Assembly: GCA_034687125.1 (NCBI GenBank)
Contig: JAQGBZ010000274.1
Location: 22,428 to 86,427, forward strand
Source: Neelides folsomi
Taxonomy: Eukaryota > Arthropoda > Collembola > Neelipleona > Neelidae
Length of the DNA: 64,000 nucleotides
Reading direction: 5' to 3'
Shown: piece by piece, positions 9,061 through 46,538 of the stretch
How the letters are laid out: each line of letters begins with the position of its first letter
How positions within the stretch are numbered: the stretch's first letter is position 1
The notes under the pieces: model-generated
Database searches by the model: none
What the model saw: the letters and a program-made list of their open reading frames with translations, nothing else
Told to the model about the DNA's origin: nothing
Made by a program: the position numbers and the translations under genes

Positions 9061-12000
9061 TTAAACATTGATATGATAGGATTTCCCCCGTTTTTTACTT
9101 CTTGACTTTGAAGGATGAAAATTCCCGTAGTTTCCATCCGAGAACCGTGATGGTGGCTGAATCCTAATGAATTCAATTAACGTCATTAAAACAACTTCAA
9201 TCGTAAATTTTGCTCCGAGTCACTGAATTTTTACAAACCTAACGCTGTAAGTGCAAGTTTCATCTGGCTCTTCATAGCTTGACTTTGAACCATCTAAACA
9301 TAAAAAATATCCATTAATAATGTTCATTAGTAAAACTACTTTTGAATTAAAGGGCCATCTTAATCCCAAGGGCCTTCTTCAAAATTAATTAATTAATATA
9401 TGCTTAACTTGAAATATATCGGTAGGTAAAAGTATATAAATATCAAAGGACCTGGAGATGGATTCCTATAATAATAAGCGGATTCATTCATGAGCCGCCC
9501 TTTTCCTCCGACGTAGTCATCATCCTAAAAGAGAATTTTGGAAAAAAAGAGGTCAAATTTTATTCAATATAGAAACGAATTTGAGTAAAAACAAAAAAAA
9601 GTTTTTTTGTTCTCGAGAAAGGAAAAGAAGTTGAAATGAAAAGGGAGGAAAATGCCTAAAAAGGGTAAAGAGAAGAAGGGGAGATCAAAGAAGAAAAAAT
9701 CAAAGTCGCGGTCGAGAGAAAAGAAAGAAGAACCAGAGGAGGAATCGCCACTGCCTCTTCCGGTAACTTTTCACTCATCTTTAATATTTACCTTACCACA
9801 AACTTTTATTATTTATATGCAGATATTCTAAACAATGTTAAATTCTGCATTCTAAATAATCATTGTTTAATCATTCCTATTTAGAATGTGTTTCTCATTG
9901 TTCGCCGACTCAATACAACGATCTTTCTTGAAGGCCATGACGAGGAAATGAGGGTTCATGATGTTATAAGCACAATTGCAGGTAATTAAATTTTATATGT
10001 TAATACTATATTTCACCATGTTCATACATATATTTTTTAAGAATAACAATATTAGCGAAAATGGGTTAAGTTTAAAAGTGTGATTTAATTATAGCAATAG
10101 GAAAAGTGGACCCTGAAGAAGTTCGTCTCTTTTATGAGAAAGTGGAGCTGAATGAGAACATGAAGAAATTAAAGGAGTATGGAATTAATCCTGGGAATGC
10201 TAATCCAACTTCTCCTGCAAATCTGTCTTCCATATTTAAGTAAGGCAACAAACCCGAATTTATCTACTTATTTTTAAACTTGATTTAATATTAAGATAAA
10301 TGTTATCATATTTTAATTTTGACTTTTAACATAATTTGTAGGATTGAAGGCGGAGGATGGGAAGAGGTCAACATCACGCCTTACTCTCCAATACCAGAAG
10401 TTCCAGAAGAACTTCGACCCAAAGAGGAAAAAGGAGAAAAACTTTATTTCCTTTCACCTCAAGCAATTAAAAAATAAAATACAAAAATTCAAATAGTTAA
10501 AAGTTATTGATAATTATCAATATAGCTTTAAACTTTATAGTTTTTTATGGGTTTATGAAAGTCTTTAAAAACATCAAAAGGTTAAAGTCTTTACGATTTT
10601 AGGAATTTATGTAGTGAATAAAAGTGAATGTTACTTACCCTCATTTGAAGCGTTGGAGCTTCAAAGCCTTGGACGGCGTGGTAGGGACCGGAGTAAATAT
10701 TCCCAGCATTGTAAAGAGTCTCAGAAGAACTCATTTGCTGGTGTAAATTAAAATTAGGGCGGTTGGGGGGCTTTTCAGGTAACTGGAATGTTGCATAAGG
10801 GCAAACATCATCTTCATATTTCTTCATTTCAGCTAGTTGAAAGCTTCCAATGGAAGTTCGAACATCGTCCGTTGACTTCCTTTTTAAAAGGACCCAAAAC
10901 ATCCCGCACACAGCGACAAAAGCCATGATAATCGGGATGACAATGATCAACGTTTTACCAAAGGTCGACTCTTCAGGGGGATCTATTTTCATTAAATAGT
11001 ACAATTAATTAAGGAAATAATGGGCGAGAGATGAAATAATGAAATCATTCAATTGAACAAATTTCACCTTCTGACGAAGCCCCCGTAATGAATTCAAAAG
11101 AAGCAACTGATGAACCAGCATCACTTACTGCTGTAACGCTCAATTCATATTCCGTATTTGATTTGAGATTTTCAATAAAGTGACTCTTTGTTTCGCCCTT
11201 AAATCATTAATTCCAATTAAAATCAATTTATTTTTATAAATTAATGTGATGTATAGTTAATACGAGTTTACAATTAACAGCTTTATAATTATTACATGCA
11301 AATCAAGAATTGCTTTCGATCCTTTAGCAGGCTTTAATTCAATATGAAATTTTTTAATCGGACAGTCGCTCGTCCATGTGGCCATGTTAAGTTGAACGGT
11401 GGTCGCATTAATGAGAGAAATTCCATCGTTTTGCTGTGTTGGGGCTGCAAATCCGAAAACATTCCATTTATGATATGGCTTTTGCATTCATTGGTGAATT
11501 AAAACACAATTTGATAAATTAGAAGTATGAGTATTATGGAAAACCTCCACCGAGCGTCGAGACTTTGAAGATGTCTGAGGAATGACCTGGACCGATTTTA
11601 TTATAAGCTGTCACATAGACAAAGTACTTTGACCCACATTGTAAGTTCTTAATTGTCAATTTGCTTTCTCTTGGCCCGAGGTCAAATTCGTTCCAATCTC
11701 CGCCCTCTTTTTTGTAATTTATGCGATACCCTTTTAAAAAAACAAGTTTGAAAAAAAAATTCGAAAAGACAAAGCATAAAGATATACTACCTATTAGAAT
11801 TCATTTTGTATTTACAAGCTGACTGATAAATTGTAACTCACCTGTAATTCGAGAGCCTCCATCTTCGGTAGGAAACCAAGAAAGAACCAAATAATCAAAA
11901 CTAGCCTTTGTAATTTCTAATTTCGGGGGAGACGGTGGGACTTGGATCCTGAGATTAAAAGTAATTGAATCAGTGCCATGGATGTTTGTTGTAATGCAGG

Positions 12001-15000
12001 TATAGTTTCCCTCATCTTCCAGAGATGTGTCCTCAATACGAAGATTGTCAAAATCTCCGTTGGTCTAATGGATCAATTAAACTAGAGTGAGCAACTGAAC
12101 TTTTTCAATCTGACTTTAATTAAATTATGCCTAATTAAGTAAATACTGATGAAATTAAATTACCGTTTTTCTCCCTATAGATGCGAGCATCAAAGGATTC
12201 CCATTGAACCTCCAGGAAACGATGGGTTTGGGGAGTCCTACCGACTCGCATGGGAGAATTAAAATTGACTTCCAGGGACTCCGAATTTCATCTCCAAATG
12301 AGACAATTTTAGCTGGAACTTTTCCTGCTGTTGATATTCGGATTTTATGGCTCGGTGGGCCTTCGCCCACTCGCGTCCATCCAGAAATCCAAAAATCATA
12401 CGCTCCTTCTTTCAAATTCGTTAATTCAAGCTTTTCATCATCTATCACATCTTTCCTCTCCTATCATGAATATAAATGCAATATAAATATTTAGCATACC
12501 TACTTTTAGCACATTTAACCACAATTAAATAAAACATTAAATAAAATATTAAATTAAATCAACACGTACAATTTTCCCACCGTCTCTTTCTTTCGAGTAA
12601 AGAGAATATTTGAGAATGTGTCCATTTGTAAAAGCAGGCGGACGCCATGAAATAACGATGGATCGTTTCGAACTCACTGAACCTTTCAATCTCTCGATCT
12701 CTCCAGGCACTAAAACAATATTTACTAGTAATGTTCTAATACAGTAGTCCGTGTGTAATTTGCAATAATCTTGTTTTAATGTACATTAAGGTAAATAAGT
12801 AAGGAAGTGGAAAATTTAAAATTCTAACCATCTTCATTGGTCTTGCAAACAATTGGATTCGAACTCACACCATCCCCAAATGAGGTGAAAGCCAATACGG
12901 AAATTGTATAATTCGATGCTGGAATTAACTCTTCTAAATTCACAACTCTTGTAGTTGTCAATTTCACTTCGGAACCATTGGGGGAGTCGAGAGTTAATTT
13001 ATATCCTTGAATGACTCCATTTCTTCCTTCAACTGGCGGATCTTCCCAAGAGACAACAAGTGTCTTGGATGAACCTTCACATCCAACATTTTCCGGAGGC
13101 ATTGACGGAGCTAAATAAATATTTTCCCTTTCTTAATTTACTTTATCCTTTTGTTATTCTCATTCTAACTCAACTAACTTAGCTTACTTTGATCCTTAAA
13201 TCCTTATTTAAACCATTAGGCTATCATTTGTAATTAAATTAAATTAGAACAATTTACCATCTTGAAGCGTTCGTCCAACAACTGGAAATGAAGGTGGCCC
13301 ATTTCCTTTCCCATTGAATGCTTTCACTATGATGAGATACGAAGTGTATTTTTTGAGCCCATCGAGAACCAAAGTAGCTCCGAAATCATCTCCAACCGAA
13401 ACCATTTTGAATGTCCAACCGCTCATTGTTTCTTGGGTTCGTCCCCCGTCGTCCACTTTGAACCCCACGTTGTAGCCGAGCAAATTCCCGTGCCAGAGGT
13501 TTCGATCCGGAGAACTCCAACTGATTTGAATGGCCGTGGAGCTGAGCGATTCAATACGAACATTTGATGGAACTCCTTCTGGAGATTCTTCCTGTGTCGT
13601 GACACTCAATGTCTCTGAGGGTGAACTATAACCTATAGGGTTGAGGGCCAAAACTCGAACAATGTATGTTGTTGATGGTGCCAATCCTTCTACTTGTAAC
13701 GATGTCTCTTTGGTTCGTTCTTCCCTCACTTCTATTTCTGTCCACGTTTCTTATAAAACATTTTCAAAATGTAATTTGATTCCATTTTACTATTCTGATT
13801 GATTTTTAATTAAATTCCCATTTGAAAAAATATATCATGTAATTGCATTTTTGCATAATTAATTCCAAGTTTTACAATCATATTGCAATTTTGAATTTTT
13901 GGACCAATTGGAGCCTTAATTATACTCTAATTTCAATTATTGTAAGGAGTCAACTTACCTGATGGGAATTTATACTGAAGGATGAATGAGTCCGAAGAGA
14001 TTGAGTCAGGGGCTGACCAAGTAATAAAAATGGAACGACTCTTCACTTCAACCAGACGTAAATTAGAGGGGCGTTCGGGAACTTGTAGGACGTTGAGAGA
14101 GACGGTGGAAGTGTCGGATCCGAATTTATTACTTCCTCTACACGTGTAAAGACCCATGTCACCCTTACGAACATCGCTGATCACAAGTTCAGAAATGGTC
14201 ACATCACTCACGTTGGTTTGTCGTAAGTTATACCTACACCAAATTAAAGTTTTCAGAGGCACTCATTAAAACTAATTGTTTCACAATCCGATTTACTATT
14301 TTACAAAAACTGATTCAATTCCTCAAGTCTGGTGAAACTTGTTTTTATTTGCTATATTTAACTGTTGTACTAAAAGTGCTCTAAAAGCATAGCGTGATTC
14401 CCCAGAGATCGTAATTTCTTCAGGCTACATGTCATTTCCATTCTTATAATCGAACGAAATAAAAGTTTTCCTTTATAACTGAGTGTTGGAAAAGTTTCAA
14501 ACCTGTGACCGTGACGAATGTTGATGTGTCCATTAGACCAAGAGATTTCTAAAGGACCGTCGCCCTTTGCCTTACATTGGAGAATTCCTCTTTCTCCTGA
14601 CCGAACACTCACGTCACTCCGCTCCTCGATGAATCGAACTCGAACTATGAATTTCAATATGCAAATTTTAAAACTTTTTTGTTAACCTTATACTTATAAT
14701 ACATGATAAATACATAAAATACATGGACAAGGCATGTATAATAAAAGTATACGTACTGACATCCATATTGGTTATTAAAGCTATTTAATATAGAAAGTGC
14801 TTATAGGAAAATTGAACCTGATTAAATATTGAAAAGGAAAAGTGATATATTCATATTACACAGAAAGCTATATGCTATCACTTTATGAAAGACATTTATG
14901 CAATAATGGTGAGAGGAGAAATGTTCCTCCGGGAAAAATATAAAAGATAAATTGAAAAAAGGGAGATGAGGGAAATGGAAGCATGTTGAACTGACAGATA

Positions 15001-18000
15001 TCTCTCACTCAGAACAACTCAATTGTTGGGGAAAGTGATATGAAATATGAAGTTGTGTGGAATATAATGAGGGAGTGATCGAAGAGGAAGTGTGGGATGT
15101 CAAAGGGAAAATTTAATCTCGTGGTTGGAGCATTCGATTCCCCAAGATTGGATTAGTGAGAGATGAGATGTGATTTGGGACGGAATGGGAAAACTTTCTC
15201 TCTCAATTCATGATGATATATACCATTGACAGAGAGTCCAACGAGTTTTGAGATTCCGGACCCGACGCCGTTTCGAGCTTCGCAAACGTAACTCCCCTCA
15301 TCTTCCTTCCGAGCTTCGCCAATCCACAAGCTCCCGTTCTTCCAAACAACTCCAATGCTTTTGAACCCTCCGGAACTCAAACCTGCTCAAAAAACAGTAA
15401 AAACAATGCGTTCAATAAATACCAAAATAAGCATTCTTTACATAACTATTCGAGAATTAAGATCTTGCAGCTATAAGTATTACTAAAACTGAATATATTA
15501 AATCAACCTAAAAATTAATAATTATGAAATATAAAAAGGAATAGAATGGCAATATGAAACAATTTTAAAATTAATTGGCCAAATGAAGGGAAAGGAATTT
15601 GGTAAAATGAAAAGAGATGAGAAAACGATCAAGTTCAATCCTTTTGACATGGGCGGAAGAAAACTTCATTTCCTCGCATGGATCCGGGGAGAGGATATTA
15701 CGGAAAAAAACTACTACAACAAAAGTATCACAAGGTAAAAATAGTCCAATAATACCATTATTGTAGGAAAGTATTTATTCGTATATACTATATTGGATCT
15801 GGGGACGTGGAGAGGTCTTGGATACCTTCAGAGATATGGGAAAAGTTATGTGGAAATGAAAAGTTGGGAAGATGAAGTGGAGGGTTCTCCGGAGAAATCG
15901 ACTGATTGGAGAAATTGGGGAAGGAACTTGGAACATTAAATTATTGTATCATCCCATCAAAGGAAGTTAAACATTGGATGTAAGTAGGATGAAAATGTCC
16001 CTCAGCGGCCCAACACACCCCCAGACACACCGAGAGTTCAAAGACTTCCAGAGGAAATGAACTTTCAAAAACTATTTGAATTTAAAATTCGATACTTTTT
16101 CTATCCTCTATTCAAATCTTCAATTTGTCAAAAACTGTTCAAAATAAATATAACTTAACTTTTTACGTTTTTTAAATAGAGGTATATTTTATGAGCATTG
16201 ATAGCTACCACATTGATAGGCTACTTTATCTCCAATTTAATCAAATCTTATTTACATAAAGAATTATTATAGTAAAGTTTTTTGAGAGTATCTTATTTGC
16301 ATGTAAAACAATACCAAATGATAAAAAGATTTTATTATAACAATGCTATGCACAACTATGCTCATGATATTAGGAAGTAAAAAGATATGAAATAGTTGTA
16401 TTTCACTAAAAAGTTTAAAAAAAGTTGGAAAACTCGCGAAAGTCTTTTCTTCACTCGTCCATCACATCGTTGGCAATAAATATGATAATTCAAAAAATTC
16501 GCATAGAAAGCGGGAAATGATGTAAAGAGAATAAATATAAAAAGAGCGTATAATGGACATTACTGCTACTTTGACTAGTTCGACTTTCGATGGGAGTGGA
16601 GCATTATAGAAGATACAAATAAAGGAATAGATAGGCAAATGGGCCGAGTGGCTCCTATTGATTCCCATTGATTGTAAATAAAAAAGAAGGAGCAATATGG
16701 GAGTGGGGAAAGAGGATTTGAGTGTGAATAAAAATTGTGTGAAAGTCGAACCTTTTTTCCAAGTGATGTTCGGGGTTGGATGGCCAGATGCGGTGCAAGG
16801 AATGCCAACTGAGCTGCCTTCAATAACCGAAACGTCCGTCGGCTCCGACCGCCACTTTGGGGGAACTGGAAGGAATAGGCATTTTAACATAGGGAAGTAA
16901 CATGCCAAACGACACTTCCACGGTTCAATTCCTTTAAACCCAATAATAATAATAATAGTAATATCCTTTTTTACAGTCTCTCCTCATCCCTTCCAAGACT
17001 TGGGGAAGGAAATTGAAGATTCTCCAATTTCCCTATTACCGCCCCTCATTGACCTTTAACGACATCCATAACAATTAAATTCCTCCCCTCGTTTTCAAAA
17101 CCAAATTGTCACTTTCTCCTCAAAATTCGAACGTGTCTGTGCTTTGCCTCTGACACGAGCAAGATATTTATTTATATATTTGTTCAGTTTTTCTTTTATT
17201 GTGTCACCTTCATACCTTAATCCATCTTACTCGATCCATTTTTAGAGGGAAAAAAGTACGCACCGTTCACGTTGAGAGTGAGAGAATGGGATTCAATTCC
17301 AGCTGTATTTTGAGCAGTGCAGGTGTAAACTCCGCTGTTTTCCGCTACAAGCGACTCAATGACTAAAGAAGAGGAATAGTCGTCCAAGAGTCGTACGATG
17401 ATTCCCCCAACCTTTAAAACCCCCCACTACTGTGAAATACCAATGAAGGGAAATAGAAGTCATTTAAAAGAAAGTGACATTACGCTATTTGAAACAATGG
17501 GATTTCCATCGAGTGTCCATGTAAAAGTAATTGGAGTATCTCCCTCGACGACTTGGCAAATCATCCCAGCTCTCATGCCTTCGAGTAGAAGCTCGTCAGG
17601 AATTCCAAATGGAATGATCCTCGGCGGAACTATTAAATTCAAAACCAAAATCATATTTTTAACTATTGTTCAATTCTCTTCATTTTCCTTTTCGAATGTT
17701 AAAAAAGGATTTGAATATTTAAAAAAAAACGTAATGTTAAAAATTTAAAATGACCTTGGACAGCAACGTGGATAGCTCCACTTGCGGAAATTCCTTGTCT
17801 ATTTCTCACAGTACATGTGTAAGTTCCCTCGTCATTTTTCCGATTCAACCTCTCAATGGCGAGGGTTCCATTAGGAAACGAAGTTTGTCGACCATCAGTT
17901 CGAATTTCTTTTCCTCCTCGTTCCCATTTGATGGCCTCAATGGGATAACCTGATGCGGGACAGATGAGGAAAACCCTTTTGCCAGAAACCGCAAGCAACG

Positions 18001-21000
18001 AAGGCGTGCTCCGAACTTTGGGTGGACCGTAAATATTCAGGCGATCTTGATGGGTCAAAAGCCCATAAGAATTCTTGGCAGTGCAAGAATAAACGCCGCC
18101 GTCAAGCTCGTCAACATTTGTGATGTTCAGGTGGGAAATCACTTTGTCGTGAATTGTCACATATTGACCCACAAGGAACCTTCAAACATTTAATTTATTA
18201 AACAATTTCTCACACACCCTTTTTTCACTTTTAGCTATATTTGCATAAGTAATTTATTGCCCAATGCAATGATTACTTTTTATAGAAGTAGGTTAACAGA
18301 CTAAACATTGATGGAATAGTAAATTGAATTTAACCTTTCAGATTCAGGTAACGGAAATCCATCTCTTGCCCATGAAATTGAAGGCGGCGGAGTCCCAACA
18401 GCAATACACTTAAGTGAAACGAATGGCCCAGGTTGAAGAGTTTGTTCAGCGAATCGATACACGAATTGAGGAATGATAGCTTGGAAATTAAAATAATTTC
18501 AAAATTTTTATTCTTGCATTATAATATTTCTATCTATACCTCTTACTTAACATTGACTTTAATTAATAAGTGCAATTTAATTTTTCACATTGACTTTATA
18601 AATGGTAATTAATATGTTTTTTAAATTATGTATGTATTTACATCCAATCCTGAGCTGGCCAGCAGCTTGAGACGTAAATAATTTATTTGACACGAAGCAT
18701 TGATACATTCCAGTATCTGAGAGGCGCACCGGCGAAATTTGAATATCATAATTCGATTTTTGCCCAGACTCAAATTCAAGCTCTTTCCCATCTTTGAACC
18801 ATACGATTTCATTGGATTCTTCAACTTCTCCGGTTCCGGTTTGGCAAGTGAAACTCGCCGTTTTCCCAACATCAACTTTGTTAACAGGCGGATGAACGGA
18901 GACGGAAATCGGAGCTAAATTGAACATCAAATATCTGTTAATAATGGTATAACATTTTGAGAGAGAACTTGTAAAAAACCATTCCTTTCATTTTCCTTAG
19001 ACATTGACAATTATTAATCTAAGAGTCCATCAAATATAAAAGCGATTTGGTGAAAATCGAAATAGGAGGGATTGGAAATGGAATAAATATTTAATAGTAT
19101 TACTAACAATATAACGCAATGTAGAGAAGTATATTTAATATTTAAAAAATCCATTAAAAGCAGAGGCGACCATTAAAGAATTAAAAAGAGTGTTTTTGAG
19201 AGGAAGTTGGTGGGAGGAGGACCAAGATGGATGTTTGACGGTTTAAGGACGTGGAGCGCTCATGGGAATATTTTAACGCTCTTGTTTACGAAGACCACTT
19301 CTGTTAATAGGGTGGTTTCGCATAGAGAATGTAATTGAAATTCCACCCGTTAATTCCGGAGCTCATCCCTTCTAATTAATCAGCTTAAACCTCCTCAACT
19401 CCCTTAAGGACTCAAACATTTAGTTAAAATGGGGAAAACCTTCGTTGAATACAAAATCATTTCGCAACACTTCTTTTGATATTAACTACTTACAATTTCA
19501 CTATAAATTATGGTCGATTAATCACTAAAATTATTCCAATATATCATTTAAAGTAAGATCATTGCCAAAATTACCCAAATATAAGTAAATTATCATTATT
19601 TTAAAAATTCATTACCATATTAAACATTCCAAGTATTATTTTAAACCCTTTTTGTTATTTATAAGGACTTAAACTTGGGTACTAATTTATCTTTATGCTA
19701 AAATAAAATAAACAAACTTAAACTTAAAAAATCGTTAAAGTTTAATATTCTTGAATTAATAAAGCTTATTTTTAAACCTTGCAATTTCCCCACAATTTCC
19801 GAAAAATTTATTTCATCCGCATTCAAACAAGCCATTGCATATTGTAAATTGTAATAGAATTAAACGAGGATCTCAAAAAGAATCATAAAAGTGAGTCCTA
19901 TGCTCTCAGTGATTGCTAAAATCTAAATCATGTTGAAAATATTATAATGAAAGGGAATGATAAAGTTTATCCATGCACCGATGTTTGGAGGGAAGGAGCT
20001 TAATATGAGAAAGTATTTTCTATATTAAATCGTTGGTCTTTATGGGAAAATCTCCTCCAATCCTACCTTCTTCAATCTTCTCCATAAAGTTTATCCCTCG
20101 TAAACCCCAACTCTCGTCTCTTCTCGTCCCTTCTCTCAGACTATGTAATGTCTGTTTATAGGGGATTTCTCAAAGGGGAGCTTCTGCCTACTCATGGATT
20201 TGAGAAGGAAGTAAAAATGAATTTAAAAGGCTCTGAATGAAAATATGCCATTTGTTTTCTCTGGAGGATCCCTTCAATGTCTTTCGCCGGTATTATTGCA
20301 CATATGCCATTGGGCCCATATAAGGCTCCAAATGTGGAAGGACTGTGTCTACGGTGGAAGGTAAAAGAGTAAAAAGTGTTTTTCCAAAATTGCTTTTAAA
20401 AAAACTCACCGTAGACAGTTAGAGAGATTCGGATGGAATCGTAGCTCTCACTATTATTCGCCTCACAGATGTAAAACCCAGAATCTGACTTTTTAACACT
20501 GCTAAGGATCAATGGCCCGCCGGTTCGCCCAAATTCCCTTTTTGAACCTTCTTTACGCCACCTGTAATAAAGTAATAAATTAAAATTAATGACATCAATG
20601 AATATTTACCTAAAGATAAGAACCGCAGGGATTGGTTATAATTCATGTTAGTTAATAATTCAATTAAAATTATATAACGATATTATTATTATAAAGCTAG
20701 TTTAGATATTTTTAAGAAAATAATAATTGGGAGATAAGGTAAAAAAAGGATAAAAGTCTGAAATGTTATAAAGTAGCGTATTTGAGTCACGCACTTGGCA
20801 TCAAAGCGGGTAAAAAAGCCTTTGTTCTTTATTGAAAGACAAGCGTCAATTTCAATTTTTCTCTTGGCAAAAAAGATTCCCCCGTTGAATTGAGGTGACA
20901 GGGTGAGCCAAAAACCAATTTTGAGCAAAAAAGATCTGATTAGCTTCAATAGGATTCTCCGATTTTCGGCTCAAATCCACAATTTCCACGTCGCATTCGT

Positions 21001-24000
21001 TTGTTTGGAAAGTGCGGACGTGGTGGGGAGCCTTAGGGGAGGATTACTCGAAGATTATAAGAATTTGGCAGAGAGCCGACAGAAGATGAACCTCAACTAT
21101 CATCCAATCTCCGCCCTCATTCCGACCCATTATTAAATTCCCTCAATCTCCTAATATAAACTAAAAGAAATCTCTCTAAATTGTCACTTTTCCGGATTTC
21201 ATTCATCCCTCATAATTAAAATCAGCTTCCCTATCAATATTATCTATTCCTCTAAGTGCATCACATCCAACATCACATCAAAGTCGAAATTAACAATACG
21301 CGTTAAAATATAGGAAATTTCTATTACAACTAAACTTAAGAATATATCTAATAAGATAAGGAACAATGAAAATGAAGGTTTTGGGTTCTGTTTACTTAAA
21401 TTAAGGTTTAAGAAGGTCTTGAAGAATTCTCTCGGTTCTTATGAAGGATATATAGTACATAACTTAATGTTAGTTACATATATGACCTATAGAGAAAACG
21501 TACGTGAAATTAGGAGGCGGGAGTGCTGAGGCCGTGCACGGTATGATGATGTCTTGGCCCTCGCGACTCAACAGCTCCAATCGTCTTCCTGAGTTGATGG
21601 AGACGGGGGCGGGTGAGGGGTGAGCTGTAAGAGAAAAAGATGTCATTATTCCTCCCCAACACTTCCTTCCGCCCATTCGTCCAAGACGAGAATCAATTCC
21701 TTTCTTTGGCAAAAGAGCAAAGTGGAAGCCTCAAAAACCAACTTAAATCTCCGCCCTTCCGATTAACCCAATTTCATCCTACACATTCATTCATTCAATA
21801 CCCCTTTTTGCTGATATAATACCTATCCAGTACCTGCTTATATTGATGTATGTTACACATATACTCAGACTTTGAATCATTTTATATTCACATTTAATAG
21901 ACTTAGGACTCTGGTTATATCCAATATAAGTTTTTTTATATATACTTAATACGTTCATTTTTCAATTGTCTTTTTCACAAACTCATCACATTTTGCCAAA
22001 CCCATTTTCAATCCTAAAAACGGTTTTCTTCCAATTTTTCAATATTGGGAAAATGTAATAAAACCGGACTAAAGTATTATAGTTTTTGAGGGAATATTGA
22101 ACCAAATTGAACGCATTTTTGTAAAATCGTCATTTGCCTCACAGAATAAAATGTAAATTCACACGAGCGGAAAAATCCGATGATTTTATCAGACTTCGGC
22201 CATCGCTTAAGCTTTATTTCTTAATTAATAAAAATACATTTAATTAGGAGAGGAAATGGAAATGCTACGTGTATCATCAGAGTAATCGTAAAGAAAAATG
22301 CATGTTTAGATACATGTTAAGTTTAGAGTGGTTTGGGCGTGAGAGATATTGCATGAATTACTATCAAATTGAACATTATGGTTCAAGACCGGTTCTCAGA
22401 AGTGAGAGAGAGACGTAACATTTTTAAATATTAGGAAGAGATTTCTCTTTCGACTTTCCATCCTTTTTTGAACGACGGCAGTTAGAGGCCGTCGTCCCTC
22501 AAGACAACAAGCCTCATGGCTCCGTCGATCAACGAAGCAAAACTCATTCATGAGGTGTTCTTAACATAAAATTTTATTAAATTGTAATTATTTATTTTAG
22601 TTAAACAAATTAAATCATAAAATTTAAATTTAAAAAATAATTATTATTTTTCAAGTTTAGAGAAAAATTTGAAGGAGTTTGTGATGGAGAACGGGATGAA
22701 TATTTTGCACGTTGGCTCAAAGCCTCAGATTGGAACGAAGAGAATGCGGAGAAGATGTTGAAAAAGGTATTAGAAGAATTAACACAATCCAATATTCAAA
22801 CAACATTATTCATGAACAATTGAATAATTAGACCCTGTACCTAAATGAAAAAGGAATGTGAGGGAGAATTTCTCTTTTAGAGTCTCAATTGGCGTTTGGA
22901 GAATGGGATTGATAGGATATTGGAATGGGAGGCTCCACCGCACATCAAAGCCACATGCCCGTACTATATTCATGGATTTGCTCCTGACAACTCTCCGAGT
23001 AACTCAAGTTCCCTTTTATCCACTGCACACAATTCACCATTCACTCCACGTTCGCTCTCGCTTCTCATTAATTAAAACGAGAGGAATTTACTAACATTTA
23101 AATTTTATTCCTTTTATATAAAACTAAAGAACATCTGCATAGAAGGGTTCATGAACCAAATGCTCAATTTACGTCTATAACCGGAAAGTAACTTTCAATA
23201 TAAATTTTCCCCATGTTAAAAACGATTGATAAAAGTAGTAATTGCATCCTTTAAATTAATTCAATTTAAATAAACTAAATACCTATCTTGTTGAGAATTA
23301 TACCATTAAGATGAGTAATCCGTCAATTTTTCATGTCTCAATTTATAAACACGTTATTTACTCATGGCATACAAATAATACCCCATGCGAGAAAAATATT
23401 TTCTTACATGTTTGATGATTCTGAAATAGAAATCCGGGCAGATTATAGAACAAAGGGTTTTTTCAAAATAGGGAAGCATCCCCTTAAACATCTTGGAATA
23501 TACCCCACAAAATTTAACAATATTTTATAGAACATTTTATGAATATGATCATCTTAAATAATGGGATTAAATAGAAGCTATAAATTTATTATAGCTTAAG
23601 AACATTATTTTAAGAATTTAGTTATTTTATAATACTCAAACTTTGCATTTTATAAACACTTGGACTTTGAATATTACTTTATATGGGATTTTCTATAAAA
23701 TTATGAGGAGTATTTGTATTACGGACACGTATTTGGTGCGATGTATCAAAATTTATCATAGGATAACATACATCATCATCTAGAGAGATTCAAGAGGATG
23801 GTAGTTTATAAGGATTAACTCCGTAACTAAACTAAATTGCTCGCTGTATCACAAGAGAGTTTGGAAGTATTTAAGTCGCATTTAAAATATTGATTTATTT
23901 GTTAGAAGATTGAGAAGAAGATGTGGAGGAAGAGGCTTTTAAAAGATTACCAAAATGGACATGTGCATTCGAATAGAAATTTGATAGCGGAAATCTCATA

Positions 24001-27000
24001 TAGGAAACCCAAGAAAACTTTAAATGATGGAAAACGGAATTGTAGAAGGAATTCTTAAGATGGAATTCTTGAACCAGACACTTTTTCCAATTCGATTCTT
24101 ATGAACTTTTTGTATACCTTATTTGTAGATGCAAAAACTTGGCAAAATAAGAAATTGGAAATTCAAATGTTGAAAAGCAGTATTGTAGACTCAATAGAAT
24201 GGTTTCTTATAAATACAATATTTTACTAATATCATACTTGCTATTGCTAATAATATCGAAGTTAAACTTTTTTATAAAGACTTTTCGTAGTATGTACTAA
24301 ATGATAAATCGTTGGTTCAATTGTATAGTTTTGAAAGAAGGTGATTCAATTTAAATGTTAATTTAAATTGCAAAGGAAAGTTCACATCATTATTTCCCTT
24401 GTTTGATCTTAACAATAAATAAAAATTAGAAATAGTCAGAATTTTGAACTTTGATTACATTATTACAATTGTGTTAAATAAATTGTGTTGGGGTTTGTAG
24501 TTATTTACGTTCCACTTGGGAGATGGAACATCCGAAAAGTGATTGCCGAAGAAGGGAGAGAAATTTTGATCAAGTACATTTTACAGTACTTTGAACGCGT
24601 AGTTCGAGCCGGCTTGGACAACAACTCCAAACTCATTACATATTTTGACATGGAAGGTTATTCAATTAAACAACTCGCTTCAATTACTGGTAATTAAATC
24701 TTAATTATATTATTATCATAATTTAAATTGCCATTAATTTAAGCTTGAATTTATTCTATGACGTTTATGTAATAATAGCAACTGAAGCTGTTTTGACGTC
24801 CGTAAAAAGTTTTGAGGCCAATTATCCCGAAATGACGAAAGAAACTCATTTTATCAATAGTAAGGAACTTACATGTTTGTATACAATTTGGTTGGTTGTT
24901 GGTCTTTTGGCATTTACAGTATACCAGTACTCATACATACATAAAAGGCATAATGTAGATGTATCCTACTTATATTTATATGGATGTTTTTTATTTGTAG
25001 CTCCAAAGATCTTCATGTTGATCTTCAATATTGTGAAGCCTCTCTTATCAAAATCCTCATTAGCAAATATGGAAATTCACAGCGGACCAATCACCTCCTT
25101 CAACTTCAATACAAAAGACTTATCTTACTGGTCCTATTCACCTCTTAGATCTCAAATTAAATCTCGAAACTGACCTTTTAATATTTAATTCTTTTTAATA
25201 ACCTAAAATTGTGATTTTAAATAATACAACACTACATAATATATTACAATTAACAAACTGGGATATTGGGATTCACTGGTCACAGATTTAATGATACTAC
25301 GTTTCAAATAAATTGAAATAAAATAACTTAATCTTGTATTCATAATATTTAAGAACATTGTGATTCATTTTCATTAATGCCAAAGAATACTTATAAAAAG
25401 ATTCGATTACATCCGCATTCGACGTATGCATAAGGATTATGATATTATGTACCTATGTATTAGTTTATTACTCAATCTAAATATTAATTTATGAATATTT
25501 ATAAAAAATGAATTCTCTCAGAGCAGAGTATTGGAGCAATATATAATTCGTTTATGCATTAATGCTTTGTTTGACTTTCACTTTTATCAATAATCAATCC
25601 TTTTTTGACATTGCATTGTATTTAATTGTTCATTACAAACTCCACTTCCGCACTTTCTATGTAATCATAAAGAAAATGATGCATAACTATTATGATCAAC
25701 TTAGGCTTATTTTTTATTTAACCCATAACCGCTTTCAAATATTACTTAACGGATAGAAAAACACGTTAGTTCTTAAATTATCAACTACGCAATTTTGTAT
25801 GCATTATGCACATAAACTCTACATACTTGTTAAACGAGATAATGACGATTCAAAGTGCATTTTCTTGTTCATGTATAAAATGTTCGATTCTTAAACCAAC
25901 AAGAAAAATTGAGTTAACATGATAACTTACATTTGATGATGATTTTGGAAGTGTCACTCGTTCGTATTGAATCTCTTAGAGAAGTTCGACAAGCAAATCT
26001 TTTGTAACCATCAGACTCATCAATATTGAATACATAAAGATCTCCATTTGGCACCATCCAGTATTTTCCTAAATAATAATAACAAATTAAATATTTAACA
26101 AGAATAGTAGTTCGGTATTATGACCAAATTATTAAATTATAAAAATGACACTTGCCTTTTGATGGTTGAGATGAAGGATAAATGTTAATCACACCATCTT
26201 GCACCCATGAATTCACTGTAATAAACTCTTTCAAAGATATTTCAACCTCGCATCTATGAATAAAAATGCCAAATAATGTCAAAATATTAACTGCATCAAC
26301 ACATAATAAAAATAGTCTCTAAAATTCTTAATAACGAACCTTAATAGTGCAGTGTTTCCTTTAAACACAGTCACATCTTTGTTTTCAACTCGATATGTGT
26401 CTAAAGCTAGAAATGAAAATAGATGTATTGGCATATGTATAATGCTGTTAATTTTTTAATGAATACGTATATTATTAATTTTAAATGGGGGTAAGTTTCA
26501 ATCAGTTGGATAGAAAAATATGCATGAACAAAAAATAAAGATACCTACCTTTAATAATTGTAACAGGTGGAGATAAAACGATTCCAACATTATTGGATGC
26601 TTCGCATCTCACAGTTCCACTCAGCCCATCTTTCACTTCCAGGGCCCCATCTGGACCGACCTAAATATTTTTTTATTTTCAAAAAGAGCCTGTTGATTAA
26701 AAAATAGATTTGGGGGGAAAAATTACAAATTTGGAGTTGAGTGGAAGCGATTGAGAAATCCATGTAATTTTGGGCAGCGGGGTCCCTTTGGCCCTACACG
26801 GCACAATTGAATGTGATGTGGTGAAAGAGGGAATAAGAACTGATTTCCCAGCCGGCCACTCCACCAAACTCGGGCCGACCTCCTCCAGGGTCAGAGACCA
26901 ACATGTGACGTGGATCCCTGTGTATAAAAACAATTCCCAAATGAGTGAAAAGAGAGAGATGAAAGAAGATTCGAGCGGGCGGAAGAGTTCTTATGAATAA

Positions 27001-30000
27001 TCAAACGCCTTGCCCTACGGTTTGAAGAATTGGAAATTGAGGAAATTCCATCTGATCTTCCCTTATTAAATGTTTCAAAGGGCAGAGCAAACGGCTTTTA
27101 TAACCCTTTTATTTATTCAATACCATTTCCCTTCAATTTACTCATTTATATTTTCAAAACCTCTTTTGTGGGCAAAATTAACAATTAATAAAGAAACTGC
27201 AATTCATGGTCGATAAAGACCTAGCACATCCAACATTTTCACGTTTAGTAACTTTACACACATTATTTGCATATAGCTATTTAAAATACTTTATTGTTAT
27301 TTTAACATGCTTAAAGCAATTAGCTTAAATTAGAATCACATCAATAAAATCATTAATGGTTAGTTTAATTAAACGTGTATTATTCGAATTGAGCCAAAAT
27401 TAGACCCAGATATTGATATAAAATTACACGGAATAATTAACCCTAAGCCCCTTTAGCTATTAACCACCCAAAAGGAAATTAGAGAAGATGTTCATTTCGC
27501 AATGTGTAAATAGATCCACCTGGGTAAGAGGATTTGGAGGAAAATAAAGACGAAAATTGAAATAATACACGCTTTGTGTGTCGAAACTATCGATTCCTCT
27601 GGGATTTGAGTGATAAGAGCATCAACCTGGGCCACCTAAACATTATAAACATATCCAATTCAATTTGTTCTTTGTTTGATATACGATGCAACAATAACTC
27701 GTCGATTCATATTGCCTACATCAAATATTTTCCTTTGAACATAGTTCACATAGTTTATTTTACACTATGTATGTAAGTGTATTAATATTATAACAATAAA
27801 ATTATTAGGAGAATTGATATTCTGAAAGTATAATGGAGCATTGGTTTTGCCCTATATTTGATATAAGAATTTAAAATGGAATATTGTAGAGTGGCGGTGA
27901 TGTGGCGGTCGTTGAAGTTTGTAATACTCGCCCAAACATACAATAATTATTGTCAAATATTCAATTGAAAGCTCAAAGCTCGAGTTGTATTTACTTAGCT
28001 CCACTATCCTCCATTGAGAAGTGTATTTGGTATAATTATAAAACAAACGTTCCCTATGTTGAAAGATAAGGACAACTAATGAGAGTTTCCAAATCTCCAC
28101 TTTATTCCCCGCGTCCTTAATTAAATTCCAAACATGGAGGAGGAAATTAAAAAGGAAGCTTGTGAGAGCGGAACTAAACAAATTATTGGAACAGCCACCG
28201 TAATAATAATCCATTTACTATTCTTTTCCCAAGGTGGAAGAAAGTGAAAGAAATGAGGAAGGAATTAGCATTTATGTAACCATGAATAAAGAAACCTTTC
28301 ATTTCCTCTCAATTAGCTCTTTGTGAGGTCTGATGAGATTCAAAGGGGGAAAAGGTAACGAGGAGATCCTTCCTCCTGAAGGTAATTAAATGAGGTGGCT
28401 GGATGGATGACGGAATTCAAAATGGTCTTGTTACTTGTTAGAACCTCAAGACTCCCCAGTGAAGAAAGAGAACCAAAGACGGGGATTTAATACAGCGGGA
28501 AAGGTTGGGTTGAAGAGATTCCGCTTTTATTCAATTTTCCACAGAGTTGGAGCCGAGATGAGAACTTGAGTTGTCCGTAAGTGTATGAGATTTAATATAA
28601 CGAGATGGAATTAAATTCACCCCTTTATGCCTCCGTCAGTGGAAAACTCAATTATTTCATTTCGATCCCTTTCATATACACAGCCTTCTTTTCCTACCCT
28701 ATTTAGTGTGAAAAGGGTTTATTTAAATGAGATAATTGATTCTCATTTATATTCGCTTCACTCAGCCAGTCTGATCGATGGAGCCTTCAGTTTTATAGCA
28801 AAACTACTTATATATGTCCATCTTCCATATGTTACTCAAAAGAATAATTTTTGGTTATGACTTATGAGCGATATTAGTGATACTATGTATATCAAAGTAC
28901 GCATTTGGAAATGTAATATTGGAAGTGTATTATTTCTACAATACGTTATATCTCATTGAGTTAAGAGAGATGATATGAAGGGAGTGGAAGAAGCTTGAAA
29001 TCTTAATATTGAAATGAGTGATTTTCCAATATTGAAAAATGAATGAGGAAGAGATCCATTAATCACTTCCCGCTATTTGAATGGAGATGAGGGCCGCTTT
29101 CACTTAAACTTTCCCTAGAGTCGGAAAAGAGAGGATTCATTGCATTAGGGAAGTTGTATGTGAGGGAAGTAATTCGCCCGAAATTTATTATTCGGTTCGG
29201 TGGAAAAACCCGAGTTCCTTTCATCTTCCTTCTATCCTTAATTTCTTTAACTTTCTAATTAGCTCTTCATAATCAACTTTTGACATTTTATAATTGCCCT
29301 ACCCAAAGTCGAGCTTCAATTTAAACGTAATTATTTGCATTTCACTGCTTTATAACCTTTCCTTTCACGACATAAAAGCAAACATTCGTAAGCATACATA
29401 AATACTCCTATGATACACTTCTACATACCCAATTTTACATTATACCTTCTTGTTATACAAATACAGATATAGTACATATCCTACATAAATAGTATATTGT
29501 ACTTTACTCTATAAATATAAGTAATACCAGTACTGGTTTATGTATGAAAATATATTTAAGCCCCTTAAAGGACACAATTTAGCTTAAAAACTAAAATGTA
29601 TGCAAATACTATAAATATCTACCATGCAATGTAATTAGATATTTAAATATTAAAATATTCACACTGGTAATAAATAACAATGTTGGAAGAATGGTCGGGG
29701 GTCAACACCAATAGATAAATTGAATGTTGGACAAATACGCCTTTCGACACTCTGCCTTCATCCTTCATAAATAAGCCATATTGTTGTTGGAAAGAGACGT
29801 GAGGATTGGCGAGGGATCGAGGAAAGTGTTTCGCGTGGGAAAGTGAAACTTTTCCACATCGCTCACTTCTCTCTCACTTTTCTCTCCTCCAGTTGAATAT
29901 GAGAGAGAAATGTCCTCGAGATAGAAAGAAACCAAGGAAATTGCAGGAACATTCCTCAAAATTCTAGACCTATAAATATAAGACTTGCATGGTGGAAACT

Positions 30001-33000
30001 CATACGGTCTACACAAAACCATATGAGAAATATAAGCAATTTAAATTAAGTGTCTATCACGAGCTTCATGATATCATTCAAGTATTATGTACACAAGTCT
30101 TGTATTTAATGAGGATTTCTTATAACATAATTTATTTCCCGTGAGTTCATTGGGTCTGGAATTCTTGAGACTGGCAGGTGAGTTAATACATAAAGTAGAA
30201 AGAGAAGAAAGATGCGAGATATTTAAGGTAGACAGGACGAAATTTGGTAAGCATTGTATGCTTCAAAGAAACATGATACCTTGCATGTATTTGCCATTGT
30301 TGGTATACTTATCACAATAAGCGAACGACTGTCGTTGAAAGGAAAGGGGATACAAAAAAAGACTTATCACTGACGAAGACGAATTGAGAGAAAATATCAA
30401 AATCAATATTTTTGAATACAAATGAAAATGCACGATGAGTTGATTCAAATCAATAATTCAGAAACATTACACTATGAAATATTATGCTCTCACTTTAAGA
30501 ACAATATTAATATTGCTTACTAAAACACTTTTTCCAATTGACAGCTTTGACGCATATGAAGTAATATGAAATGAACACAAAGTTATTCGACGTTTTGATC
30601 AAATACATCCTTTAAATAATTTTAATCTTGATTCTTCCAACTTTGCAAATAAGAGTGAAATAATTTGCAAAAGTTTGGCATATCAAAAGGGAAAGTTTTG
30701 CATGATTCAGCTTTAACCTTCAAATCACCGAATTAATGGAGAAATAAATATAGCCGAATGGGTGATGGTTGTAATTGAAAGAGAAAGAGGAGAATCAGCG
30801 AAATTCCCAATCTCCTCATCTTTCCCATTCATCTAGGAGTTAATTAATAAAAGAAAAGGAGATGAGATTGTATAGGGATATTCTCCCTCTCACCCACATT
30901 CAACTCCCACGCCCAAACGAATCTCTCAAAGATGCCTTGAGAGAAAGAAAGAGAAAAGGAAGAAATCCTTTCCTAATCCGACAAGGAAGGCTAAAGCAGA
31001 CGATTCCTCTTTTAAAAGGGTAAAAAACCCTTTTTCCTTTCTTTAAATCTCAGAGTCAGTCTGGGTAGTATAGATCACTCAACCCGTCGAATAAATGAAA
31101 TTCGACGAATCCTATTTTAACAAAACATGCTCAATCAAAAAATAACAATCACTTCAAATTGGACTAAACATTTTAAAATCCCATAAACAAATAAAAGTAA
31201 AAAATGGCAAACATTTTAAAAAGAACTGTTGATAAAAGTTATGATGTTATGAACGATCAAATATTTACCATCTAATTTCTCTCATAACTTTTCTTTTAAA
31301 GGCCCTTTAAAAGTATAAAGTTTGACAAGGAGGGGATGGAATGATTTATGGAAGTTAGAAGTGATTGAATGGTGAAATCAAAGGAGGAGAGAAGAATTGG
31401 AATTTATGTGAGTTGAATTGAGCCGAATGAGACTTTGGTTCTTAAGAAGCAATTTGGAGGAGTCGAGAGGAAATGTAAAGGACGAAGAAAGATGTGTGTA
31501 TTTAGGACGGGCGGAGTTGATCTCTTCTGTAAATTTGAGTTTCTTCGTCCGAGGGCAAGATATATTGTAATTCCCTGGAAGTGTATAGTGAAATACTAAC
31601 TTTTATTTACGCCTAAAATATAAGGAAGCGGCATATAATAATAGAAAGCCCGGGTTCCTTCTGTGGGTAAATAGCAGGGAGGTTCAAGAAAAAAAAATCA
31701 ATTGGGAGAGAATAATCTTTCAAATTGATTTTTCTCTTGAGTCTCTCCGTCGTCTTCACCAACCAAAGGCGGATTCCGGGTCGGAGTGAATGAAGAAGAG
31801 GCGGGTGAGGAGGAAATTGGATCGCTGAGACTACATATAAAATAAGATGGAAATTGAGAATCAAATGAAGGACTCCTCCGATGAGATCCAACACACTCAA
31901 CCCACTTACCCATCACTGCTCTAATCCAAAATATTCGTAAATATATTACTCCTCCCTTCGTATCAAATCATATCAGACTTACTTAATGCACCCAGTATGA
32001 GCATAGTATAAGGTGTGTTCTAGTTAAAGTGTATCGACGTGCTTTTTAAATTTCCCTTTTTCATATCTCTACCATAATATGATATAGACAGGTCCTATTT
32101 TATCTTGGAGAATTTCTTAAAAAATTCTCCCCACGAACTCACACATGATTCAATAGGCAATTCTCCTCTCTATGCAGATTCCATCAAATTCCTTATGCTC
32201 TCGAGCCAAAGTTTATGTAATGTCATATGAGTTGCATAACTTTCAATGCCTTCACCCCTTTTCTTCCCTCTTTGGATTATCAGCCTGGTTTTTGAAGGAA
32301 ATTCGTTAAAGTTTGGAAATACGGTCGGGAGTATAAAGCAGAATAATACATAGTCCTAATATTAGAGTAGATGAGATACTAATAACGATACGGATAAAAA
32401 GGGGGATGTATTCTTTGTATGGAATTTTATTCAATTCACGCGCGCCTATTCCCCCCATCTCATCTTTTCTCAAATCGTGTATGTCTATTGTCCATTAAAA
32501 AATAATGAGGTCTAAAAGTGAATTCATGAATATAAACTTTAAAAGAAATAAAACTTCACTCAATGGAAAGTTGAAAAGGAAATAAAAGAAAGTCCTTATA
32601 TAAATAAACGCAGAAATATTTAGATAGGTGTAGATATTATTTAATATGCTTTCTTTTTGCATAATAAGCATTAGTAGTGAATATTTTAGTTGCACGGCAT
32701 TTTATATAAAGTTAGCAAAGCATGACAACGTGACTATTCATCTCGCGGCAGTTGGGCGACCGCAGAGGAAGCTTTTCTTCTCAAATGCAAAGTTTGGGGA
32801 AATCTCCAAATATTCGGAGAGGCGGGAGAAAAGTATTATTTGCTCACCGAGCCGTGAATAACATAATGAACCATCGCCCCAATGCCCACACCTCACAACA
32901 CACACACACACTTCACTCTCTACATACATCCTTTACACCAAACCTAAAACCCTTTTTACTTCATTCAAACTAATACTTTTTCCCTAGAAGATTCTTAACA

Positions 33001-35137
33001 ATGCAAAATTATATGTAAAGGGTATAGTTTACCTATGAACCATACAACCCTTCTAAAGACAGATGTAATATCTTCATAGGTATCTGTATAGTAAAGTGTG
33101 ATAAAATGTAAAGTCATGTATGCAAGTAAGTTTATACAGAAAAGGTATAGTGAATAGTGGATATTTAAGCTCTATAAAATAAAATCAGCCAGATAGGCAT
33201 AATAAATGGTACAATGGATTGTATAAGGTAATACACGTAGGAAAAGAAAGGCGCTTTCACTGTCACCTTATATAAGATTAAATTCGCAAAGGACATGAGG
33301 ACATGACACGAAGGATACGGAGAAATTCCATCTCAACACGTGCAAGCATTGAAAGGATAATTGAAGAGGTGGAACCCGTCGAAGCTCCATAAAGTCTATT
33401 TAACTTCTATTGTACCATTCACATCCTTAATTATACCTTTACATCCTTTCTATTTATCAATCCTCTGGTTTATCACTAACTTCTTAACTAGCACTGAAGT
33501 GAAAGCAGTAAAATTACCTGGATGGTTTATATCTACATAATTTATAAATGTATCCTCCACGGATGGTTTGTATAAAGTTAAATATAATATGATAATATGA
33601 AGAGGCATAATAATGGCCTTGTTTAATAATAAGATGCGTGGTATAAAATATACATAATGTAAGATGATTCTCGGATCCTCGTTTTATACTGCAAGGTATA
33701 AACCGACGTTTTATGTTATTTGTATAAGGAGGGAAGTAAGAAGGAGTTGCGGGCGACGCTGAGCCATTAAACCGGGTTTCGTGTGGAGGTAATGAGAGTC
33801 GAAGAGGGAACTCAATTAAGATTTATATAAACTCCCATCTTATTTACGAGAGTGTAAGGAGGGGCGGAATTGAATTACATCTTCGCTCTTCTCCTCCCTC
33901 GAGGATCTCAAAAACTGATGGCCACACTGCCAAGACCAGAGAAAATGTATCTAAACAGAGCTAATTCCAAAATGGTTCAGTCGCTCGGGACTTGGTTCCA
34001 ACTATAAGTTCATATAAATAGGAAGTCCAACAAGTGACCATCACTCATCTTCATCCTCTCCCATTATGATTTCCATTTCACATCGTCCTCAACTCCCATG
34101 TTGATATAAAGAACCGCATTTTTATAATTCCCAACTGGTCCACTTTCTCCACAATTAATCAATCCTATCTTCTTCCTCAACATTATTAAAACAATACAAG
34201 ACCCAATTAGTTGTGTAAAATGCAATATTTACTAAATATGTATTGATCAATTTGTATGCAAAAATGGAGAAATTTTTTCACATTTGATATTTATGAAAGA
34301 TGTACCCGATGTACATTATATTAGTATTACGTAAAATGTAAAGTATGTATGTAATGTAAATATTTATATTAAGTATTTTCATAAGAAACTTGTATTGATC
34401 CGTTTGTTAGAGAAAATAAGTAAGGATGGATGTGTTTAATGTTTTAATTAATTTAACCCTCCTCCGCCCTTCCCCACGTAGGAGAAGTGCAGGGGATAAA
34501 AAATGAGGAGGTTTAATATTAAAACCTCGGGAGAGTTGCAAAGTCCCTTCCTCGTTCTTTATTCTGCTAAAGGGCTGAATCCCTCCAGGACTCATCCGAG
34601 TCAGAGCATGAAGAAGAAAGAATGGGAGAAGTTGAAGAGAAATAGAAAGAATACACAGGACAGAACGAGATTAACCAAACTTTAACTTTTCCTGCACACG
34701 AGCGAATGCCCCGACCGCCCCACGCGTACTTCCTCCAACAATGTCCAAACAAATGAATTCTTTAAACCCGATTTACGCTCAACAACGCACCGCCACAAAC
34801 TCTCAATTCTCATCACTTCTCATCAATTATATAAATGAATTACCAACAATTGGAAATCATTATCTGGCCCATCTTTGTAAATAAAACCGATAAAAACAAT
34901 AAAGAGAAAGTTAACCTGTTTCACTTTCGTACACAAATACAGATAAAAGAGAAAGTTGGAACAAGGGAAATTAAAACTTTTAGTAGATTAAAATTGAAAT
35001 TAAAAAAGACTATTAAACGGATCTTAAATTTCCTCTTTAATTTACTTAATTATTTTTAAGGATTAATGAAAGAAGATCAACTTACGGAAAGAACCAAGGA
35101 AGATAATGAGGAAGAAGAACGGCCCCGAACTCATCAT
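9061..35137 (-). CDS. Dscam: Dscam-type immunoglobulin superfamily receptor, 29 exons, 1741 aa
   Basis: Homophilic cell-adhesion receptor of neurons and, in arthropods, haemocytes. Exons (high to low): 35137-35086, 26917-26727, 26660-26549, 26400-26340, 26253-26156, 26068-25931, 21624-21504, 20561-20410, 18914-18642, 18479-18335, 18179-17755, 17629-17484, 17411-17264, 16865-16752, 15382-15224, 14644-14503, 14233-13959, 13749-13258, 13110-12829, 12709-12570, 12460-12164, 12064-11842, 11730-11545, 11444-11296, 11197-11068, 10982-10639, 9524-9452, 9293-9239, 9163-9061. All phases agree (5226 nt). Exon 1 is a signal peptide, MMSSGPFFFLIIFLGSF. Then come Ig1-9, FN3 1-4, Ig10, FN3 5-6, each Ig with its cysteine pair (for example MYQCFVSN in Ig4, VYTCTAQN in Ig7). 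A membrane span, TLIIVIPIIMAFVAVCGMFW, precedes a tail of about 155 residues with DDVCPYATFQLP, ending SYHINV. Ig5 RFLVGQYVTIHDKVISHLNI is nearly arthropod consensus. The two ATGs at the start are equivalent. Confidence 0.95.
9652..10477 (+). CDS. Elongin-B-like ubiquitin-fold protein with lysine-rich N-terminal extension
   Basis: Four exons (9652-9762, 9885-9981, 10095-10239, 10342-10477) give 162 residues. From residue 38 it parallels Elongin B throughout: NVFLIVRRLNTTIF matches the ELOB start VFLMIRR..TTIF, the middle keeps the EEVRLFYEKVEL block, and the end WEEVNITPYSPIPEVPEELR matches the ELOB Pro-rich tail. Elongin B pairs with Elongin C as the adaptor of cullin-2/5 ubiquitin ligases and of the elongin transcription factor. 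Residues 1-37 (MPKKGKEKKGRSKKKKSKSR, then an acidic stretch) are absent from normal ELOB and look like a nuclear or nucleolar targeting tail. It lies inside the Dscam intron between the membrane-span exon and the cytoplasmic exons, on the opposite strand. It could be a diverged paralogue rather than the main ELOB. The upstream ATG at 9636 closes after seven codons, so 9652 is the start. Confidence 0.82.
22516..25173 (+). CDS. SEC14-like CRAL-TRIO lipid-transfer protein, short, nested in a Dscam intron
   Basis: Six in-phase exons (22516-22554, 22656-22766, 22881-22998, 24501-24689, 24779-24859, 25001-25173) encode 236 residues. SEC14-like proteins bind and move phosphoinositides or hydrophobic ligands between membranes. 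The CRAL-TRIO-N part reads FREKFEGVCDGERDEYFARW and KASDWNEENAEKMLKK, then the SLNWRLENGID block. The lipid-binding part shows DNSPIIYVPLGRWNIRK, DMEGYSIKQLASITG, SFEANYPEMTKETHFIN and PKIFMLIFNIVKPLLSKSS, all hallmark blocks of the family. The protein stops soon after this last block without the usual K-x-L...LP-x-EYGG end and without a GOLD domain, so it may be a reduced or decaying paralogue. The gene lies wholly within the Dscam intron between the Ig2 and Ig3 exons, on the opposite strand. Exon 2 uses the acceptor tttttcaag at 22655; the nearby tttag gives a frameshift. Confidence 0.82.
26918..35085 (-). other. Dscam first intron, 8.2 kb, no nested gene seen
   Basis: Lies between the signal-peptide exon (ending 35086, donor gtaagt) and the Ig1 exon. 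Phase 1 on both sides matches, joining F to R-I-H-V. Inside I find no exon, RNA gene or transposon I can support; open frames are short and of biased composition. Several long purine-rich and pyrimidine-rich runs and a CA tract at about 32899-32911 are present. Long first introns often carry enhancers, but no individual site can be named from sequence alone. Confidence 0.6.
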
Positions 35138-46457: not shown

Positions 46458-46538
46458 CTCTCTCTCTTCTCTCTCCTGACACGGTTCTCCCGGAATAAAA
46501 TCTAAGACATCAAGGATATCATGAAGGAAGCGTTTCAT

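Follow-up and report, generated by a model that had tools for sequence, protein, structure and literature searches.

An intact non-hypervariable Dscam-like gene and a separate hypervariable Dscam1 in the genome of Neelides folsomi

The stretch of Neelides folsomi DNA analysed here (64,000 nt, hereafter the window) carries a Dscam-type gene on the minus strand (35137-9061), which we consider, with a probability of about 95%, to be an intact non-hypervariable Dscam-like paralogue, the hypervariable Dscam1 being a separate gene in the same genome. The Dscam-like class is assigned from domain order, exon content and the presence of a separate Dscam1, not from a match to any one of Dscam2-6. The original prediction, made from the window alone, had left two readings side by side, namely that the gene is a non-variable paralogue or that the lineage never gained, or lost, the exon arrays. 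The first has held and the second has fallen: contig C86 of the same assembly carries a Dscam1 with all three arrays, so the lineage possesses them, in a gene distinct from that of the window.

Gene model and domain architecture

Twenty-eight exons on the minus strand (26917-9061) splice into a single open frame of 1,725 aa, which has no internal stop and terminates at 9061 (Table 1). All splice sites are GT-AG except one GC-AG, and this one non-GT donor (GCAAGT, at 26156/26155) ends the Ig2 exon 26253-26156. A candidate 29th exon, encoding the putative signal peptide, lies at 35137-35086; a rival candidate for the first exon (33608-33518) has a higher donor score and a lower hydrophobicity. 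The splicing of this model, and expression of the gene, are predicted from the genomic sequence.

The predicted protein has nine Ig domains, four FN3 domains, a tenth Ig domain, two further FN3 domains, a transmembrane segment, and a cytoplasmic tail. Pfam recognised six fn3 stretches, eight stretches each of Ig_3 and I-set, and the domain FN3_DSCAM-DSCAML_C (PF25059; 121.5 bits against a cut-off of 39); the Ig domains that take the count from these eight stretches to ten were read from the exons. The best solved-structure match of Ig1-Ig8 is fly Dscam1 Ig1-8 (E 2.2e-148), in an alignment that begins within Ig1.

For comparisons with the fly gene, we used a working Dscam1 sequence, whose agreement with the solved fly Dscam1 alignment was seen by eye over Ig1-Ig8 only. 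The window exons are collinear with this sequence in tblastn; Ig1 and the first half of Ig3 gave no match to it at E < 0.01.

Table 1. Features of the window (positions in the 64,000-nt stretch).
Feature	Position	Strand	Details
Kinesin-associated microtubule-binding domain, flanking gene	1193-1555	+	above Pfam cut-off
Three final tail exons and stop codon	9061-9524	-	spliced model
Transmembrane exon and beginning of cytoplasmic tail	10639-10982	-	spliced model
Ig8, Ig9, FN1-FN4, Ig10, FN5, FN6 exons	11068-16865	-	includes the DSCAM-specific C-terminal Fn3 (PF25059)
Single-copy Ig7	17264-17629	-	exons 17629-17484 and 17411-17264 with a 72-bp intron between them; corresponds to fly exon 9
Ig4, Ig5, Ig6 exons	17755-18914	-	fly Dscam1 matches and spliced model
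Ig3 second half	20410-20561	-	spliced model
Single-copy Ig3 first half	21504-21624	-	counterpart of fly exon 6
Intron between Ig2 and Ig3 (4306 bp)	21625-25930	-	sense strand: no more Ig2/Ig3-type exons found; plus-strand CRAL-TRIO-like ORFs inside
Ig2 second half	25931-26068	-	spliced model
Single-copy Ig2 first half	26156-26406	-	exons 26406-26340 and 26253-26156, the latter ending in a GC donor; corresponds to fly exon 4
Ig1	26549-26917	-	exons 26917-26727 and 26660-26549; spliced model; placed by alignment to fly Dscam1 structure sequence
Candidate signal-peptide exon MMSSGPFFFLIIFLGSF	35086-35137	-	start codon at 35137; donor GTAAGT; joins Ig1a in phase 1
UBX domain, flanking gene	39384-39728	-	above Pfam cut-off
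DnaJ domain, flanking gene	45615-46544	-	above Pfam cut-off
TECR N-terminal domain, flanking gene	49798-50136	+	above Pfam cut-off
F5/8 type C (discoidin) domain, flanking gene	62611-62985	-	above Pfam cut-off

Ig2, Ig3 and Ig7 are each encoded once

The three positions that are arrayed in Dscam-hv/Dscam1 bear no arrays in the window gene. Each is occupied by one exon or exon pair that joins in phase, as had been predicted to within six bases (the Ig2 start lies at 26406 rather than 26400). The further claim that the flanking introns contain no second copy was borne out by profile, protein and DNA scans. We built profiles for Ig2a (six C86 exons, fly, and window), Ig3a (nine C86 exons, fly, and window) and Ig7 (five C86 exons, fly, window, and the related gene on contig C1) and ran them unfiltered on 6195 six-frame ORFs of at least 15 aa from window 7001-36000, C86 1-86000 and C1 694001-724000. 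In the window, they matched the Ig2a, Ig3a and Ig7 exons described above, themselves part of the training data, and gave weaker matches to the constant Ig exons of the gene. Within 7001-36000, they detected no convincing extra copy of Ig2a (best match outside coding frames E 5.3), Ig3a (E 0.79, wrong strand) or Ig7 (E 15, wrong strand). On C86, which served as the positive control, the same profiles gave 2, 22 and 15 places beyond the C86 training exons for Ig2, Ig3 and Ig7, respectively.

Searched by tblastn against the four introns that the original prediction had singled out, the window exon peptides returned nothing better than E 7.9. Their best matches beyond the domain exons of the gene were weak: E 0.023 at 46192, outside the gene, for Ig3; E 0.24 for Ig7, from a stretch of the first intron (8.2 kb) that is interrupted by a stop; and E 0.42 on the wrong strand for Ig2. 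The exon DNA itself found at best 46 bases at 76% identity in the first intron (E 0.034, likewise weak).

Near-identical tandem exons can collapse in assemblies, and arrays at this locus might have been present and merged in this way. We regard this as exceedingly improbable, given that the three arrays on C86 are resolved in the same assembly, that the window is free of N, and that the introns in and around Ig7 span 72-398 bp. Ig7 is preceded by an intron of 125 bp, split by one of 72 bp and followed by one of 398 bp, which leaves little or no room there for another exon of ~290 nt.

A hypervariable Dscam1 on another contig

A domain search of the genome assembly (75.1 Mb, 840 contigs) uncovered closely packed Ig exons on C86. 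The minus strand of this contig (about 45934 to 10250) aligns with fly Dscam1, the match beginning at Ig1 and reaching the membrane region. Within the three array intervals, profile matches at E < 1 comprise 8 Ig2-type, 31 Ig3-type and 20 Ig7-type sequences. The Ig3-type array has about 28-31 exons; three of its 31 matches (at 28086-28743) are weaker, and with a strict motif 26 of the 31 show an open frame flanked by splice sites. Three of the 20 Ig7-type matches are pieces adjoining another match, which leaves about 17 units, 14 of them intact under the strict motif. Judged from its sequence, the C86 gene is a canonical hypervariable Dscam1 and a true orthologue of fly Dscam1 with all three arrays.

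Some Ig7-type copies on C86, perhaps broken ones, yield split profile matches (around 24.2-24.5, 20.5-20.9 and 15.6-15.9 kb).

Summed over largely non-overlapping tblastn pieces (E < 1e-4), C86 is 63.3% identical to the working fly sequence overall (990/1563) and 63.1% in Ig8-FN6 (591/937), and the window gene 39.6% (444/1121) and 38.7% (263/679). Within this genome, it is therefore C86, and not the window gene, that comes closer to the working fly Dscam1 sequence across Ig8-FN6. Ig5-7 had been described as very close to fly Dscam, which proved overstated: the Ig4-Ig7 pieces of the window gene share 41.5% (156/376) with the working fly sequence, against 59.4% (206/347) for the C86 orthologue. 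Between the window gene and C86, identity is only 36.2% (409/1131); the window gene is thus no recent copy of Dscam1 that lacks arrays.

The full Dscam architecture and the absence of arrays in the window gene would also fit a lineage that never gained, or lost, the arrays and in which this gene is the Dscam1. The C86 orthologue, with all three arrays and far nearer to fly Dscam1 than the window gene, makes that reading next to impossible, and we reject array loss in the lineage. Array loss should not be deduced from a single locus.

Chelicerates have shortened Dscam genes with 5' arrays (sDscam), which belong to the Dscam superfamily. The window gene differs from them in being full length, and the mitochondrial gene order of the genome is pancrustacean. 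We rejected the possibility that the C86 cluster is a shortened sDscam-like array, as its match to fly Dscam1 spans Ig1 through FN6 and includes three arrays. On the mitochondrial contig (C742, 15157 bp), protein genes were recognised by eye, with cox1 read in table 5, and 21 tRNAs were called; trnN was not among these calls, and one extra call lacks a clear anticodon. The gene order on this contig agrees with what we take to be the pancrustacean ancestral order, in which trnL(UUR) lies between cox1 and cox2. This order agrees with the presence of Dscam-hv, the origin of which PMC3364881 places in the common ancestor of Pancrustacea. The COX1 residues may be springtail-like.

Further Dscam loci and relation to known Dscam-like genes

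A search for other Dscam loci, which had been proposed as a check, recovered both the C86 Dscam1 and a further Dscam gene on the plus strand of C1, at about 698 to 716 kb (698000-716000). The C1 gene has the Dscam domain order from Ig5 to FN6, weaker Ig1-Ig4 matches upstream, and a single Ig7 exon. It is 37.0% identical to the working fly Dscam1 sequence overall (492/1329) and 37.1% in Ig8-FN6 (294/793), and 38% identical to the window gene. We queried the genome with the window protein, Ig8-FN6 of the working fly Dscam1 sequence and the C1 protein; among the matches listed for these three queries, Dscam-like exon runs lie on C274, C86 and C1. C1 was absent from the matches listed for the window-gene query and was recovered with the fly query, which shows that a paralogue can escape a search of the first kind. 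Further matches lie on C222, C28, C159, C299 and other contigs; counted over the loci inspected on C274, C86 and C1, the genome has at least three Dscam genes, of which at least two are Dscam-like.

PMC3364881 distinguishes five Dscam-like clades in insects and predicts Dscam-hv alone in Daphnia pulex; among the non-hypervariable fly genes, it gives Dscam2 two Ig7 exons and Dscam3 and Dscam4 one isoform each. The insect Dscam-like genes (Dscam2, Dscam3 and Dscam4, and the Dscam5/6 of that study) have the full architecture, no arrays, and a separate Dscam-hv beside them. The window gene has the same 9 Ig-4 FN3-Ig10-2 FN3-TM order and the PF25059 domain, lacks arrays, and coexists with a separate Dscam-hv gene, but differs from the insect Dscam-like genes in having one intron within Ig2a and another within Ig7.

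The window gene could be a Dscam2 orthologue in which the choice between two Ig7 exons was lost or never present and Ig7 became intron-split. It has one Ig7, in two exons, in place of the two mutually exclusive Ig7 exons given for fly Dscam2 in PMC3364881, and no second Ig7 exon. The C1 gene, likewise with one Ig7 exon, could be Dscam2 just as well, and we consider orthology of the window gene to Dscam2 possible but rather unlikely. In another springtail, Folsomia candida, PMC5490193 reports a palindrome containing two times eight copies of Dscam2. These are likewise Dscam-like genes in a non-insect hexapod; here, in contrast, one further Dscam-like gene (C1) appeared among the matches listed, and no palindromic expansion was seen.

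A shared exon layout

The window gene and the C86 Dscam1 share their domain order, and around the Ig2, Ig3 and Ig7 exons their splice sites have compatible boundaries and phases. Entry and exit phases in the window gene are 1/1 for the Ig2a pair, 1/2 for Ig3a and 1/1 for the Ig7 pair. The C86 array exons are compatible with these values, but the search itself fixed the entry phases of all types and the exit phases of the Ig3- and Ig7-type exons. Only for the Ig2-type exons was the exit phase left unconstrained; of the eight present, six were recovered, all with exit phase 1, and one of these six (43046-42894) looks mis-bounded. At the Ig2, Ig3 and Ig7 positions, where the C86 Dscam1 has 8, about 28-31 and about 17 array exons, the window gene has a pair of exons for Ig2a, a lone exon for Ig3a and again a pair for Ig7. 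Because array positions match single exons or pairs with compatible phases, one exon layout appears to have been inherited by both genes, which suggests a shared ancestral layout in which duplication of those exons was confined to the Dscam1 line.

A further step would be that the window locus keeps the pre-array layout in an early-branching hexapod or other pancrustacean, that Dscam-like genes predate insects, and that the form from which the arrays were founded is still visible. We hold this doubtful and offer it tentatively; even if true, it would be only partly new, as springtail Dscam2 genes are already in print. A Dscam gene without arrays is to be expected wherever Dscam-like paralogues occur, and on its own is ordinary and of little significance. 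The comparative use lies in having, in one genome, a Dscam1 with listable array exons and at least two fixed paralogues, which can serve for dating arrays and paralogues.

Predicted role of the protein

The product of the window gene would have one constant ectodomain and, presumably, one homophilic binding specificity. By analogy with fly Dscam-like proteins, it may mediate adhesion or repulsion between neurons as a receptor of fixed identity and would not be a source of per-cell identity.

Neighbouring and other genomic features

The 4.3-kb Dscam intron contains three plus-strand CRAL-TRIO (SEC14-like) ORFs (22641-25173), one of which (24727-25173) passes the Pfam cut-off (24.7 versus 22.6 bits); they probably represent a nested gene. 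A series of small lysine-rich ORFs (MPKKGKEKKG...) lies on the plus strand at 9640-10477, within the 1.1-kb tail intron (10638-9525), and had no match in a Pfam search. The minus-strand ORF at 2219-2749 resembles a mariner-type transposase by eye; the Pfam search gave no supporting match. Horizontally acquired antibiotic genes, considered as a marker of springtail identity, gave no support: elsewhere in the genome, a condensation domain has a single match, below cut-off, and the DIOX_N profile has eight matches, all above cut-off, the strongest of which is on C223.
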